Shown: one piece after another, positions 12,327 to 21,555 of the stretch
How positions within the stretch are numbered: the first letter of the stretch is position 1
Layout of the letters: every line of letters starts with the position of its first letter
Assembly (NCBI GenBank): GCA_025454115.1
Contig: JALOPB010000017.1
Span: forward strand, 1 to 37,928
Source of the DNA: Desulfobacterales bacterium
Lineage (GTDB): Bacteria; Desulfobacterota; Desulfobacteria; Desulfobacterales; SpSt-501
Direction: 5' to 3'
Length of the DNA stretch: 37,928 bases
Notes under the pieces: generated by a model
Seen by the model: the letters and a program-made list of their open reading frames with translations, nothing else
Databases searched by the model: none
What the model was told of the DNA's origin: nothing
Made by a program: the position numbers and the translations under genes

Positions 12327-14777
<2,451 letters not shown>

Positions 14778-14791
14778 CTACTGAAAAATTT

Positions 14792-15910
14792 TTATAGTCT
14801 CATCGGCATGATAACACTTAAATAGGATTTGTCCTTTTCACCCTCGATAAGACAAGGTCTTTCCTCGTTTACAATGTTCAAGGACACATTTTCATCATCG
14901 ATAACGTTCAACGTATCAATGAAAAATTTAGGATTAAACATAACCGTTATTTTCTTACCATTGAATTCAATAGGCATGTCCTCTTTTGATTCACCAATTT
15001 CAGGATTAGTAGATGAAATCGTAAGTAGGTTTTGGTCAAAATTAAATATAACACCTTTATATTCATCCGAAGATAAAATGGACATCCGTTTGAGCATCAT
15101 TAAAAACATCTGACGATTCATGATTAGGTTGTGGCCGGCTGGCTTAATGATAATATCCGAATATTTTGGAAACTCACCCTCAAGCAATCGGATGATGAGC
15201 GTTTCACTATCTTTCTTAACGATAAAATTGTTATCTTTAAAGGCAGCACGAACACTTCCTTCTGTTTCCAAAAATTTTCCAACTTCAACCAAACTCTTTT
15301 TGGGTATGAGAACCCCGGTACCATAAATTAAACTATCCGTTGGTTCAAAAACAAAATCCGCCTTGGAAAGACGGCTGCCATCAGTGGACACCAATCTAAA
15401 AATTTTCTTTTCATTTTCTTCTATTCTCTCTGCATATACTCCGATAATATGCGTTCTACGATCATCAGCCGCAGCTCCGATAATAACCGATTTAGCTATC
15501 ATCTCGGATAGCATGGATGACTCAATTTCAAAAAAATCAGCACTTTCGATCTTCGGTATTTCCGGAAAATCATCAGGGTTCAATCCAACGATATGATATT
15601 CAACGTTTTTGTTTCCAATTTCAATCCAATGATTTTCTTTTTCTTGTAATAATATTTCGTCACTTGGAAAATCCTTAAATATTTCAAATAGTTTTCTAGA
15701 ATTAATGGCTGCCATTCCATGAGCTTCAACCTTTGCAGAGTAGTTGCCTTCAAACCCGGTTTCTAGGTCGGTAGCTGATAGGCAAAGACCAGCATCCGTT
15801 GTTCGTAGCAAGACATTGGTGGTAATGGCTAAATTGGTTTTTCGACCAGTAATACCTTGAATTCTTGCTAAAACCGGAAGAATGTCAGCTTTCCGAACAG
15901 TCACTCTCAT
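14792..15910 (-). CDS. dnaN: DNA polymerase III beta sliding clamp
   Basis: A 372-residue protein of normal length with three clamp domains. It starts MRVTVRKADILPVLARIQGI, has KTNLAITTNVLL in domain 1, and ends with SYLSVIMPMRL, the usual C-terminal clamp motif. It forms the processivity ring of replicative polymerase. ATG 15910 was chosen because AAGGGTG lies about 7 nt upstream; an in-frame GTG at 15919 would add three residues. Base composition is clearly more AT-rich than gyrB downstream and than most of the window. dnaA and recF, its usual neighbours, are absent on both sides. Confidence 0.95.
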   Translation of the reverse strand: MRVTVRKADILPVLARIQGITGRKTNLAITTNVLLRTTDAGLCLSATDLETGFEGNYSAKVEAHGMAAINSRKLFEIFKDFPSDEILLQEKENHWIEIGNKNVEYHIVGLNPDDFPEIPKIESADFFEIESSMLSEMIAKSVIIGAAADDRRTHIIGVYAERIEENEKKIFRLVSTDGSRLSKADFVFEPTDSLIYGTGVLIPKKSLVEVGKFLETEGSVRAAFKDNNFIVKKDSETLIIRLLEGEFPKYSDIIIKPAGHNLIMNRQMFLMMLKRMSILSSDEYKGVIFNFDQNLLTISSTNPEIGESKEDMPIEFNGKKITVMFNPKFFIDTLNVIDDENVSLNIVNEERPCLIEGEKDKSYLSVIMPMRL

Positions 15911-15984
15911 CTTAATCACCCTTACTCTTTTGTATGTTTAAGTTTTTTAAAAATAAAAGATAAATGATTAATAAGGAGTGTTAA

Positions 15985-16165: not shown

Positions 16166-16726
16166 TCAAACGTCAATAGATCTGATCCATTTCTTAATAT
16201 TAGGAACAACCTTTGCGGACCATTTGGAGGTGACTCTTATTTTAATGAACGCCTTAAACGCCAGTTCAATAAAATTTGTAATTTTATTGAACTGTTCGGT
16301 CTTGTCCAGTAAGAAAATCTCCATTTCTTCCGGGCTTGGCGGAAGCGGTGGTCCTGGTGTTTTAAAGTTGCTTAAGTTGAGACTCTCCCCCTTTAAACTG
16401 AACTGCCATTGATGTTCCCCGGTTTTAAAAATAAGGCTTAGCTCAGTCAAAAGAGCGCCCTTTTTCAAAGCCAGACGCCCCTCTTCAAGTCCTGCATCAT
16501 CTCCTCTGATGGAAATACGTTCAAGGGATTTATTTTTCCGGTTTTCGAGAACGATACGGTTGCCTATTTCTAAGGCCGTACAGTCAGGGTCGATTACTCT
16601 GAAAGTATTCTGGTCAGTTTCGATGAGAAACCACAGCCAGGTGAGAAACTCATCCCCTAAGAAACGATAGCGGTTATATGCGACAGCCAGATCCAACATG
16701 ATATGAGAATATTTTCGTGTTGCCAA
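16166..16726 (-). pseudogene. rdgC: RdgC C-terminal half, separated from the N-terminal half by an in-frame TGA
   Basis: A 186-codon reading frame continuing in exactly the same frame as the upstream rdgC segment after TGA at 16727-16729. Its content follows the second half of RdgC: GDEFLTWLWFLIET corresponds to the LTEWVR region of E. coli RdgC, and the segment DDAGLEEGRLALKKGALLTE, then WQFSLKGESLNLSNFKTP, matches the region before the RdgC C-terminus; a further helical tail is extra. The first possible start is TTG 16726, with no ribosome site in front of it. It may be a separately translated subunit, the product of readthrough, or the stranded half of a nonsense-mutated gene. Confidence 0.6.
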
Positions 16727-17341
16727 TCAATCTGAAAAGGGTATAGGAGAAAGGCCTATCAAGACATCACGTTCCTGATCGGACAGGTCTGAAAGTAATT
16801 CAGCGGCCGTGTAGGGAAAAATACGAACCAATGAAAGGTCAAAGGAACGTTTGAATAGAGATTCCAAATCCTCGTTAGAAGAGCGAAGGCTTGAAAAAAA
16901 ATAAATATTCGACTTTTCATAATCCCATATTAAGTCGTAAACATTGGGAGTCGAGGGAATCCGTATCGCTAAATCCGTTATGACCTTGTCTTTAATAGCC
17001 TTCTTCTCGTCTTTGGATAAGAAGCGACGCTTGGTTTTATCTAAGCGCTTGAAGGTTTCAAGCGTCACGTATTTTTTTAGTAGTTTGGCGGGTATTGATT
17101 TACGATCCACGCGTAATGAAAAAATGAAGAAATTGCCAAACAGAAACGAGGACGTTTCAAAGTTTGGTGAAAATGGGTTTTCGAAAGATGTCCAACCAAC
17201 TGATTTTTCAGAGATATCCTCATCAATATCGGCAATGGCATTTTTTCTTAAGCCCTTGGCGACAGCTTCGGTTACCGGTTTTTCGATTTTGCCTTCGACA
17301 CGGTAGCGCGATATAGAAACAGATGACGATAAAAGTCCCAT
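16727..17341 (-). CDS. rdgC: Recombination-associated protein RdgC, N-terminal part
   Basis: A 204-residue ORF starting at ATG 17341 (MGLLSSSVSISRYRVEG). The RdgC pattern is visible: GWTSFENPF, then a strand-rich block FGNFFIFSLRVDRKSIPAKL, a basic helical segment KRRFLSKDEKKAIKDKV, RIPSTPNVYDLIWDYE, and LFKRSFDLSLVRIFPYTAAELL. E. coli RdgC is a DNA-binding ring protein that limits RecA loading. Here the frame ends at TGA (16727-16729), roughly half way through a protein that is single-chain in E. coli. No selenocysteine function is known for RdgC and no convincing SECIS hairpin follows the TGA. Low-GC like dnaN. It is divergent from the EndoQ-UvrD gene and shares its 98-nt promoter region. 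Confidence 0.7.
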   Translation of the reverse strand: MGLLSSSVSISRYRVEGKIEKPVTEAVAKGLRKNAIADIDEDISEKSVGWTSFENPFSPNFETSSFLFGNFFIFSLRVDRKSIPAKLLKKYVTLETFKRLDKTKRRFLSKDEKKAIKDKVITDLAIRIPSTPNVYDLIWDYEKSNIYFFSSLRSSNEDLESLFKRSFDLSLVRIFPYTAAELLSDLSDQERDVLIGLSPIPFSD

Positions 17342-17439: not shown

Positions 17440-20400
17440 ATGAAAATAATCGCTGATTTGCATGTCCATTCCAAGTATTCAAGAGCCACCGCGCAGGACC
17501 TCAACCTGGAAAACCTATATGTATTTGCCCAACTAAAGGGTATTCAATTGGTCGGAACAGGCGATATTAGCCATCCCGTCTGGTTTAGAGAAATTGAAGC
17601 CAAGCTTGAACCCGCTGAAGCCGGGCTGTTGCGATTAAAGGGCGATGCTGCCAAAGCGCAGGACGAAAGGGTACCGCTCAATTGTCGAGGAACGGTTCGC
17701 TTCGTTTTGGTAACTGAAATCAGTAACATATATAAAAAAGCGGGTCGAACACGCAAAAATCATAATCTGGTGTTTGTTCCTGATTTGGAAGCAGCTCATA
17801 AACTCAGTCATCGGCTTGAACGAATAGGTAATATCCACTCCGATGGCAGGCCGATCTTAGGGCTAGACGCCAGGGACCTGCTGGAGGTGGTGCTGGAAAC
17901 ATCCGATGAGGCCTTCCTCGTACCGGCTCACATATGGACTCCCTGGTTTTCGGTGTTAGGGTCCAAATCAGGTTTTGACTCCATTAGCGAGTGTTTTGGA
18001 GATCTAACCCCTCATGTGTTTGCGGCTGAGACAGGTTTATCATCTGACCCGCCAATGAATTGGCGGGTATCCAGTTTGGATGAAATCACATTGATCTCGA
18101 ACTCGGATGCTCACTCCCCCTCAAATCTGGGGCGAGAGGCCAATATCTTCGACATTGAGTTGACCTTCCATGCATTGCGCGACGCTATCAAAAGCGCGGA
18201 TCCAAGTCGTTTTTTGGGAACCATCGAATTTTATCCGGAAGAAGGCAAGTACCACTTGGATGGTCACCGCAGCTGCGGCGTGCGTTTCGAGCCCAAACAG
18301 ACCGTAGATCAGCATGGCATCTGTCCGCAATGTGGCAAACCCCTCACGATTGGCGTTCTTAACCGGGTGGAGCAGTTGGCAGACCGCTCGGAAGCCCCAA
18401 AACCTAAGAGGGCGCGTCCCTATAACAACCTCATTCCGCTTGGCAGCATACTCGCTGAAATTTTACAAGTTGGCCCGAAAAGCCAAAAAGTATTGAGGAC
18501 TTACCGCACGGCGATCGAAAAGCTAGGGCCGGAATTGGCCATTCTGAATCAGTTGGACGTTCAGCGGATAGAGGAAGCGGGGATTCCGCTTCTAGCCGAA
18601 GCGGTACTGCGCATGCGTGAGAAGAAAGTCGAGATCCGTCCGGGATTTGACGGTGAGTATGGTACGATTAAGATCTTCAGCTCAGCAGACAGAGCGCGGA
18701 TTCGCGGCCAGAGAAACTTATTTGTCATGTCTGCAGATTCTGAAATCACATTGGGATCTGACCATCATCCGGATCCAACGCCGCATCCGCCGCTTCGAAC
18801 ATCGGAGATATTAGCGACTCCCGTGATCGATCCACCCTGCCGCGAACGTAAGGATGGCATGCCATGTCTTAATGCGGATCAGCAACAAGCGGTTGTTCAT
18901 GAGGCCATGAGACTCTTGATCGTGGCTGGTCCAGGTACAGGCAAAACGCATAGCCTCTCATGCCGCATCGCGCATATGATTACCCAAAGGAAGGTCGAGC
19001 CCCGCACCATATTAGCCGTGACCTTTACCAATAAGGCGGCCGGGGAGATGCGCTCGCGGCTGCGTGCGATGTTAGGTGATTCAACGTCGTTGCCATTCAT
19101 CGCTACGTTCCATTCTCTTTGCCTCAAATGGTTGCAGGAAATGAACCTAAACGAGGTCATTACCCTCATCGACGAATCCGAGCAGACCGAGCTCGTTGGC
19201 GAAGCAGTCGAGCGGGTTGTCAATAGTGGAATCATGGTTTCATTGAAGCCGATGGTTCTTCAGGATCGAATTATGCGCGCCAAACAAAACATGATGGCAG
19301 CCGATCAGCTGGAATCGACTGAATCCGATTCTCCGGAGGACCAGGGTTTTTATGCTGTCTATCGCACTTACCAACAACTGCTCGATAGTCAACGACTGGC
19401 GGATTTCGAGGATCTTATATTTAAAGTAGTAAATCGAATGGAGACCGATCCAGGGTTTCGGCAAGCCTGCCGGGAACGATTTCAGCACGTACTTGTCGAT
19501 GAATACCAGGACTTGAACCATGGGCAATACCGTATGATACGGGCATTGGCGCCTCCCCATGCCGATAGCGGCAGTTTATGTGTTATCGGCGATCCGGATC
19601 AAGCCATCTATGGCTTTCGCGGTTCCGATTCCGCATATTTCCGAAAATTTATAGAAGACTATCCTGATTCCGGCACCGTCACCCTTGCACGCAACTACCG
19701 CTCAACCAAAACCATTCTTTCCGCATCTCACCAAATCATCACTCAGGGTGGTTACGGCCGTCCGCGGGTCTATTCAAACATTGACGGCATCGAGACCATC
19801 AGTGTTATCGAACTTCCGAATGAGCATTCCGAGGCTGAATGCATCGCCAGGATCATCGAGTCGTTGGTCGGCGGAACCGGGTTTCATTCGATCGACACCG
19901 GCCGAGTCAGGGACCCCCATGAACCGGCTGGGTTCGGTTATGGTGATTTTGCCGTTCTGATGCGCACCCATGATCAGATGCGCATCCTGGCCGATGGTTT
20001 CAAGAAGTCAGGTGTTCCTTTCCAGACGGCGAACCGACGACAGCTGTTCAACCAACGGGGCGTTATCGAGCTGATTTCGCTGTTAAAACTCATTTCCGCT
20101 GCGGGCGGTTATAGCGATTTCGCTAGGGTGGCGGCGGTGATTGCTCCCGCACTCGGTAATAAAGCGGTTCGGGCATTCAGGCAGTGGGGATTGAAAAACC
20201 GCCTGGCGGTTAGAGAAGGATTGTCGGCTGCCACACGCTTTCCGATTCATGGCCTTAGCCGCAGTCAGCAACGTCAGCTGGGAGAATTGGGGGGTCGACT
20301 AGCCGTCCTCGTCCAGGAAACCGCTCATCTTGCAACTGCTGAAACCATCGCTTATTTGAAGGCGATTCCGCCCATCGCCCGGCTGCTGGACGACGATGAG

Positions 20401-20800
20401 TCTCGATATGCCCTGGGCCGATTGGAGGCCCTATCTGAAAGTTCAGAATCCTTATCACCCGCGTGCGGAAAAAACGGTGTTGATGACGATGCACGCAGCC
20501 AAGGGTCTTGAATTTCCGGTCGTCTTCATTTCCGGCTGCGAAAATGGATTCATTCCTTTTAAGCGCAGGGATCAAGCCTCGGTCGACCTGGATGAGGAAC
20601 GGCGACTGTTCTATGTAGCCATGACCCGAGCGCGCCAGAGGCTATACTTAACAAGCGCTAACCGGCGTCAGATCTTCGGAAAAACAGAAAACCGTGAATG
20701 GTCTCATTTCTTAAGAGACATTGAGAATGGCTTGCTCAAAAACGAATCGCAGCGCAGCAAGCGGAGGAAACCCAAGGCCGACCAGCTTCAGCTATTCTGA
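17440..20800 (+). pseudogene. EndoQ (PHP nuclease)-UvrD/Rep helicase fusion, frameshifted near the C-terminus
   Basis: Residues 1-430 are EndoQ-like: PHP start ADLHVHSKYSRAT (His8, His10), GTGDISHPVWF, NSDAHSPSNLGREAN, a zinc site with CGVRFEP and HGICPQCGKPLTIGVL (Cys279, 295, 298), and PGFDGEYGTIKIF. EndoQ cuts DNA 5' of deaminated bases and abasic sites. Residues 475 onward are an SF1 UvrD helicase: AGPGTGKT (496-503), VLVDEYQDLN, IGDPDQAIYGFRGSD, ARNYRST. Frame 1 ends at 20511 without motifs V and VI. These continue in another frame from about 20450: YHPRAEKTVLMTMHAAKGLEF, then EERRLFYVAMTRARQRLYL, to the stop at 20800. Compared with relatives, some 25 or more codons also seem to be missing between LSESS and YHPRAEK, so the event is a non-triplet deletion rather than a single-base slip. 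Without V and VI the helicase should be inactive; the nuclease half could still be made. Confidence 0.85.
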
Positions 20801-20882: not shown

Positions 20883-20912
20883 TTGATAAAAGTGCCAGTT
20901 GTTGTGTAAAAT
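20883..20912 (+). promoter_or_regulatory. Probable promoter of the lytic transglycosylase gene
   Basis: TTGATA (20883-20888), an 18-nt spacer and TAAAAT (20907-20912), the latter preceded by TGTG as an extended -10. The same GTGTAAAAT word occurs in the rdgC/EndoQ divergent region. Confidence 0.5.
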
Positions 20913-20949
20913 AACATTATATTGTTTAAATCCACTGCACCCTTCGCGG

Positions 20950-21555
20950 ATGCCATCGGTTCTTGTGAATCGCAGATCCCATCAAATCGCTGGCTTTGCG
21001 ATAGTTGTCGCTGCGTTGCTGTTGATGATGAACCCATCTTCGGCTACGGCCGACATCTATCGGTATATTGACGAAAATGGGGTCATGCATTTCACCAACG
21101 CTCCGACTTCGTCAAAATTCAAACTATTCATGCGCGAACGCAAGGTCTTTATTTCCAAGCTCGATTCCAATCAGTTTGATCCGATCATCGCGGATGCATC
21201 AAAAAAATATGGCCTTGAAGCCCCGCTCATAAAGGCGGTCATCAAGGCCGAGTCCGATTTCGACCCCAACGCCATCTCCCACAAAGGCGCCCGGGGGTTG
21301 ATGCAGATCATGCCGATGAACTACCGGCTATTAAACGTGGAAAACCCCTTCGATCCCCATCAAAGCATCGATGCCGGCGCTCGCTACTTGCGCGACATGA
21401 TGGACCGTTACAACGGCAAGCTCAACCTCTCATTGGCTGCCTACAACGCCGGCCCCGGCGCCGTGGACCGCCACGGCGGCGTGCCTCCTTACCAGGAAAC
21501 CGAAGAATATATTGAGCGTGTGATGCGCTATTATCAACGTTACAAGAACTCGTAA
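20950..21555 (+). CDS. Soluble lytic murein transglycosylase-like protein (SLT, DUF4124)
   Basis: A 201-residue exported protein. Residues 10-34 are a signal peptide (IAGFAIVVAALLLMMNPSSATA). Residues 36-50 (DIYRYIDENGVMHFTNAP) are a DUF4124 segment. Residues 75-200 are an SLT domain with catalytic Glu101 in IKAESDFDPNAISHKGARG, then GLMQIMP, and AAYNAGPGAV. It cleaves peptidoglycan glycan strands to 1,6-anhydromuramyl products in the periplasm. ATG 20950 precedes the signal peptide directly; an upstream in-frame TTG (20899) would add 17 residues that do not look like part of an export signal. It appears to be monocistronic, downstream of the helicase remnant. Confidence 0.88.
   Translation: MPSVLVNRRSHQIAGFAIVVAALLLMMNPSSATADIYRYIDENGVMHFTNAPTSSKFKLFMRERKVFISKLDSNQFDPIIADASKKYGLEAPLIKAVIKAESDFDPNAISHKGARGLMQIMPMNYRLLNVENPFDPHQSIDAGARYLRDMMDRYNGKLNLSLAAYNAGPGAVDRHGGVPPYQETEEYIERVMRYYQRYKNS

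Follow-up and report, generated by a model that had tools for sequence, protein, structure and literature searches.

A gene in which an Endonuclease Q (EndoQ) module is joined to a dedicated SF1A UvrD/PcrA-type helicase was identified in a 37,928-nucleotide contig of a Desulfobacterales bacterium (the window, meaning the whole stretch of DNA analysed), and the same fusion spans more than a dozen bacterial phyla, as judged from the best 80 of at least 585 confirmed loci. The explanation that we hold to be probable, and the best of those considered, is a clamp-recruited EndoQ nick after which the tethered helicase would peel off the lesion-bearing strand. In the literature searched, which had subscription papers and preprints outside its scope, no account of an EndoQ-helicase fusion was found, and such an absence is not proof; the identity and likely function of the fusion thus appear to be undescribed in that literature.

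The fused gene and its reading frame in the window

The interval 17440-20800, to which the preliminary description had assigned the fusion, was correct in extent, but as assembled it contained two frames rather than one ORF. The coordinates of all features are listed in Table 1. The ATG start of the fusion ORF agreed with the homologues. For the comparison of frames, the intact homologue L129 from the same genus, one ORF of 1132 aa counted from its first Met, was used as reference. The window sequence was colinear with L129 up to ORF residue 993 (around 20421) with 75% identity, then the match restarted at residue 1021 (around 20453) in another frame with 82% identity. As about 50 nt fewer than in L129 were present near 20421-20453, the window copy is either frame-broken or misassembled. 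Helicase motif V (20489-20515) and motif VI (20615-20635) were both located in the overlapping ORF 20396-20800. The EndoQ module was complete and the two helicase motifs were not in frame; past the break, motif VI and QLQLF were retained.

Table 1. Positions of the fusion gene, its parts and its divergent neighbours in the window
Feature	Position	Strand	Remarks
dnaN (beta clamp)	14792..15919	-	TIGR00663 above cut-off; linkage in 13/28 loci
RdgC-like gene, divergent, two consecutive ORFs (16727-17341 and 16166-16726)	16166..17341	-	PF04381 E=8e-8 on first ORF
EndoQ-UvrD fusion ORF	17440..20511	+	1023 aa; early end due to frame break; intact homologue L129, 1132 aa
EndoQ module, residues 1-423: PHP catalytic domain, zinc-binding part, C-terminal part	17440..18708	+	5zb8 E=1.8e-52; fold match
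DLHVHS, PHP motif I	17455..17472	+	
PAHIWTPW, includes H164 = Pfu H139 (catalytic metal / pocket)	17923..17946	+	
ETGLS (residues 197-201): equivalents of Pfu E167, G169, S171, damaged-base pocket	18028..18042	+	invariant in 118 fused modules
SNSDAHS, PHP SDAH motif	18097..18117	+	
Zinc site HRSC...CPQC: H276, C279, C295, C298	18265..18333	+	
QRNLF, clamp-motif-like pentapeptide of the linker, where free-standing EndoQs end with the clamp motif	18709..18723	+	
Linker, predicted disordered in L129	18724..18864	+	pLDDT <50, residues 425-469 of L129
SF1A UvrD/PcrA-like helicase up to frame break	18865..20439	+	Walker A 18928-18948; DEYQD 19498-19512
Out-of-frame helicase remainder	20396..20800	+	PF13361 positions 285-349, E=2.9e-25; 82% to L129 residues 1021-1135
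Frame break	20421..20453	+	about 50 nt shorter than L129
QLQLF, C-terminal beta-clamp-binding-like motif	20783..20797	+	conserved in 78/79 complete fusions

The source genome is a metagenome-assembled genome (MAG) of 477 contigs with 85% completeness and 5.9% contamination. A real mutation (a deletion) and an assembly fault are both possible causes of the frame break, and they are indistinguishable here due to the fragmented assembly. By its sequence relationships the fusion gene is native to this genome, since its nearest relative belongs to the same genus and the neighbouring genes match too. A decaying gene, from which EndoQ is still made and the helicase is lost as in EndoQ-only relatives, is a possibility that we lean against for the window copy: the break precedes motifs V and VI, and L117-L119 keep an EndoQ that stops near the linker, but an assembly fault is plausible in a MAG of this contig number and completeness, and the post-break sequence still carries motif VI and QLQLF at 82% identity to the intact L129. 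Decay would concern the window copy alone and would leave the main explanation for the family intact.

The two modules and their clamp-binding-like motifs

The EndoQ identity of the N-terminal module was confirmed at the level of sequence and predicted structure. Residues 3-423 matched PfuEndoQ (5zb8_A, E=1.8e-52; 7k30_A, E=9.5e-52), and EndoQ chains were the sole matches when the first 428 residues were searched alone against solved structures. With EndoQ alone matched and the zinc site kept, assignment of the N-terminal part to another PHP family lacking the EndoQ zinc finger was rejected, and the PHP and zinc motifs of EndoQ that had been read from the sequence beforehand were borne out. 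Foldseek on the AlphaFold2 model of L129 also returned EndoQ (5zb8, TMt 0.90). Further EndoQ active-site residues found in the window were E93, H108 and H164. The equivalents of Pfu D6, H10, D42, E76, H84, H139, E167, G169 and S171, together with SD of the SDAH motif, were invariant in 118 fused EndoQ modules. It has been reported that E76A, H84A and H139A each abolish the activity of Pfu EndoQ, whose base pocket is shaped by H139, G169 and S171 (PMC8307549). Incision 5' of dU, dI and AP sites is the predicted activity of the fused module.

The four-ligand zinc site was kept with one substitution, HxxC...CPxC compared with CxxC...CPxC in Pfu. The Pfu ligand Cys249 was replaced by His in 117 of 118 fused modules and in 25 of 27 EndoQ ORFs without a fused helicase, so the zinc site of bacterial EndoQ is described as HCCC. 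The window EndoQ scored 161 bits and missed the TIGR00375 equivalog cut-off (326.6 bits); since none of 197 genomes of the phylum reached this cut-off, free-standing EndoQ included, the shortfall is attributed to the divergence of the bacterial branch and not to the fusion.

The Pfam domain search recovered UvrD N (PF00580, residues 477-742, E=3e-71) and the first part of UvrD C (PF13361, beginning at residue 748). The residues from about 474 matched UvrD/PcrA structures (9dci, E=2.9e-66), and Walker A (GPGTGKT), DEYQD and GDPDQAIY were present in the window ORF. That the remainder of the gene is an SF1A helicase, as described earlier, was upheld by these domains, but not for motifs V and VI, which are out of frame here; in the homologues the UvrD N and C domains and the helicase motifs were complete. 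Foldseek on the L129 model matched Deinococcus UvrD (4c2t, E=1e-45).

Compared to the PcrA equivalog cut-off of 911 bits, the fused helicase reached 301 bits. In a helicase tree built by a quick method with SH-aLRT and no bootstrap, the fused helicases formed one clade with three split-off neighbours and with the L159 helicase, which lies beside a separate EndoQ; this clade was set apart from PcrA/UvrD paralogues taken from the same genomes (SH-aLRT 96). Separate UvrD-like helicases were found in the window genome and in 13 other fusion genomes checked, and in most of these 14 genomes a separate helicase outscored the fused gene as PcrA; the fusion as a stand-in for a missing housekeeping UvrD was therefore rejected. 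The Tudor tail PF21196, which in UvrD binds RNA polymerase (PMC7585439), had no match in any of three scanned fusions and was seen in two of three scanned PcrA/UvrD paralogues. By these sequence comparisons, the fused helicase is a dedicated SF1A UvrD/PcrA type, distinct from the housekeeping PcrA/UvrD.

A motif of the form Qxx[LMF][FLI] was located within 12 residues of the C-terminus in 78 of 79 complete fusions (73 of 79 for a stricter form). It occurred in 2 of 659 unrelated ORFs from those loci and in none of 11 PcrA/UvrD paralogues; the 79 fusions are related and hence not independent trials, though they come from many phyla. Q1128 and L1131 were invariant in a 52-sequence alignment. The free-standing EndoQs of the phylum terminate in a similar motif (QLKLF and similar). 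Clamp motifs have been pointed out in bacterial EndoQs, and PCNA acts through a C-terminal PIP box to stimulate the archaeal enzyme (PMC4858679). In the split pairs L116 and L122, the terminal motif was carried by the helicase gene and not by EndoQ. The linker motif, which in the window reads GQRNLF and in many other fusions GQKSLF, was found in 36 of 52 fusions compared with 7% in shuffles, and was absent from about a third of fusions. The AlphaFold2 model of L129 built with 52 sequences (mean pLDDT 87, pTM 0.69) showed very low confidence for residues 425-469, which was read as a disordered tether between two confident modules, and low confidence for the C-terminal tail (1119-1132). From the conservation and the model, the QLxLF tail is a candidate exposed beta-clamp-binding motif, and clamp binding is predicted. 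In L116:1076-4582, EndoQ and helicase were in the same frame with one TAA exactly in the linker, just before GQKTLF.

Distribution and gene neighbourhood of the fusion

Across the 84,980 species genomes scanned, at least 585 loci were confirmed, and both modules were in one ORF in all 80 of the best 80. Isolate genomes were among the carriers, namely Desulfonema magnum (L013, complete chromosome), Polyangium and Phytoactinopolyspora. The MAGs, whose labels can be wrong, were labelled Desulfobacterales, Myxococcota, Gemmatimonadota, Chloroflexota, Planctomycetota, Acidobacteriota, Binatota, KSB1, Calditrichota, Cloacimonadota, Elusimicrobiota, Bacteroidota, Pseudomonadota and Actinomycetota. 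Within the order, EndoQ was detected in 53 of 58 relatives (43 of 45 good-quality genomes), and 44 of the 53 matches had fused-size frames; in some split cases the helicase was the next gene after EndoQ. With homologues mostly a single gene and a single helicase clade, a chance junction was rejected. The suggestion of the preliminary description that the architecture may exist in relatives held, since it was intact and widespread in bacteria, and its further suggestion of a generic helicase label is very likely right for the sequence databases, so the fusion sequences themselves are not unseen.

EndoQ was present in 134 of 197 genomes in the phylum sample, and among the tallied main matches 54 of 133 were fused-size and 78 of 133 stood alone, as classified by frame length only. 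It was rarer in the other phyla sampled: Actinomycetota (7/247 genomes, 5 strong, 4 fused-size), Pseudomonadota (13/249, 8 fused-size), Myxococcota (8/115, 7 fused-size) and Chloroflexota (4/151, 1 fused-size). In the EndoQ tree, which is uncertain as it was rooted on the very long Pfu branch, free-standing forms lay outside and the fused forms were one group, with several apparently split or shortened members inside. The EndoQ ORFs of L117, L118, L119 and L120 ended at or before the linker, and the clamp motif and an adjacent helicase were absent. This was apparently a secondary loss of the helicase half, and the coupling to a helicase is hence dispensable in some lineages.

In the window (12327-15919, reverse strand) and in many Desulfobacterales-type loci, gyrB, dnaN and RdgC-like genes were positioned divergently next to the fusion. 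Among 28 Desulfobacterota-type loci whose upstream flank was long enough, dnaN was found in 13, the RdgC-like gene in 13 and gyrB in 12, all divergent from the fusion; dnaN and RdgC were next to the fusion in none of 31 loci of other phyla. The linkage of the fusion with dnaN is suggestive but lineage-bound. Only the first RdgC-like ORF of the window matched PF04381. A split RdgC-like gene (ORFs of about 205 and 175-190 aa) was observed in many Desulfobacterales (L012, L014, L017, L037, L095, L127, L129, L130), and the idea that its stop codon was a further mark of decay, or of recoding, was rejected, as relatives share the two-ORF layout. An SLT/DUF4124 gene was located downstream of the fusion in 14 of 32 Desulfobacterota-type loci; this small DUF4124 and SLT transglycosylase gene lies 3' of EndoQ or the fusion in the window (20899-21555, forward strand), L117, L119 and L127-L130, with no obvious functional link.

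UDG-family proteins were found in 56 of 58 relatives, so the repair of uracil is not dependent on the fusion, and its role as a substitute for a missing UDG was rejected for the order. EndoV (PF04493) was found in 9 of the 58 genomes of the order, compared with 53 for EndoQ. Given these counts, the chief load in this order may be hypoxanthine.

Proposed function and comparison with known systems

In the favoured explanation, the beta clamp would recruit the fusion protein through the clamp-binding-like motifs, and the EndoQ module would flip out uracil, hypoxanthine or an abasic site and nick 5' of it, leaving a 3'-OH. EndoQ is known to nick 5' of the lesion with 3'-OH and 5'-phosphate products (PMC4357722), and UvrD-type SF1A helicases move 3'-to-5' (PMC8744996). 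From this polarity we infer that the tethered helicase would engage the intact strand, translocate 3'-to-5' and hence move downstream of the nick, so that the lesion-bearing strand would be peeled off from its 5' end. A polymerase would refill from the 3'-OH, a flap nuclease or exonuclease and ligase would finish, and the clamp motifs would keep the enzyme in place at ends that resemble primers. The helicase may unwind by itself or may be loaded at the EndoQ nick. The nick-then-unwind pathway suggested in the preliminary description would fit this explanation, to which the clamp-like motifs, the dnaN/rdgC-like neighbourhood and the separate PcrA/UvrD gene elsewhere in the genome are additions. 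The fusion probably works alongside UDG and may deal with much of the hypoxanthine in the order, where EndoV is usually absent. A bolder form, held tentatively and somewhat short of an even chance, is a one-polypeptide clamp-riding excision machine for recognition, 5' incision and directed unwinding, in which the two motifs could fill both sites of the dimeric clamp. If true, a glycosylase-independent and so far undescribed repair route would be built into many bacterial phyla.

The disordered linker of about 45 residues does not imply a rigid interface, and UvrD/PcrA helicases operate at forks and transcription complexes (PMC7385302), so the modules might be joined for targeting only, with the helicase scanning DNA or clearing protein or RNA obstacles there and EndoQ acting on lesions met during translocation, with no nick-coupled unwinding. 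This is unlikely in our judgement, because the scanned fusions gave no match to the RNA polymerase-binding Tudor domain that PcrA/UvrD typically carry, and the clamp-like motifs suggest action at nicks or sites of replication. Far less probable still is an anti-phage or foreign-DNA nuclease-helicase acting on uracil- or modified-base phage DNA in the manner of GajA-GajB. An antiviral role has been suggested for Bacillus EndoQ (as cited in PMC8307549), and PADLOC GajB and RT-helicase models matched the helicase part, but these matches are generic to UvrD (PcrA model 301 bits, best GajB model 207), 43 of 45 relatives with good-quality genomes have EndoQ, and the fusion here lies beside dnaN, gyrB and an rdgC-like gene. 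The EndoQ module was also searched for in phage and plasmid collections and not found there, leaving a defence system or mobile gene unsupported; as for Gabija-type defence, the nuclease is EndoQ and not the TOPRIM/ABC GajA, and the neighbours are replication genes.

No biochemistry of any EndoQ-helicase fusion was found in the literature searched. EndoQ was earlier described from few bacteria, Bacillus and Desulfovibrio (PMC4357722, PMC4858679), and its range is now widened from the few genera of 2015-2016 to nearly all examined members of the order and scattered members of many phyla. The fusion bears on the question of what follows the EndoQ nick, for which published models have strand displacement involving Fen1, or EndoV together with an unnamed helicase (PMC4357722). 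The joining of EndoQ to a helicase with clamp-like motifs kept points to nick-coupled, clamp-tethered strand displacement, which a single purified fusion protein makes directly testable.

Compared to archaeal and Bacillus Endonuclease Q (PfuEndoQ, TkoEndoQ; TIGR00375/COG1379), the fusion shares the catalytic and pocket residues, zinc position and fold, and with free-standing bacterial EndoQ it shares a clamp/PIP-type motif that closes the EndoQ module; it differs in its helicase, one His zinc ligand, a second clamp-like motif after the helicase and a score below the equivalog cut-off. The 1A/1B/2A/2B fold and motifs are common to PcrA/UvrD/Rep SF1A helicases and the fused helicase, which differs in its separate clade, poorly conserved 2B region, N-terminal nuclease, clamp-like C-terminal motif and a Tudor tail not found. 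AddAB/AdnAB/RecBCD and Gabija GajA-GajB likewise pair a UvrD-type helicase with a nuclease, but their nucleases are RecB-like or TOPRIM rather than PHP/EndoQ, and their roles are end resection and defence. Mismatch repair (MutL or MutH with UvrD; PMC8744996) has the same logic of nick, clamp and directed UvrD unwinding, but unlike the fusion it uses separate proteins, and the lesion is recognised by MutS and not by the nicking enzyme.
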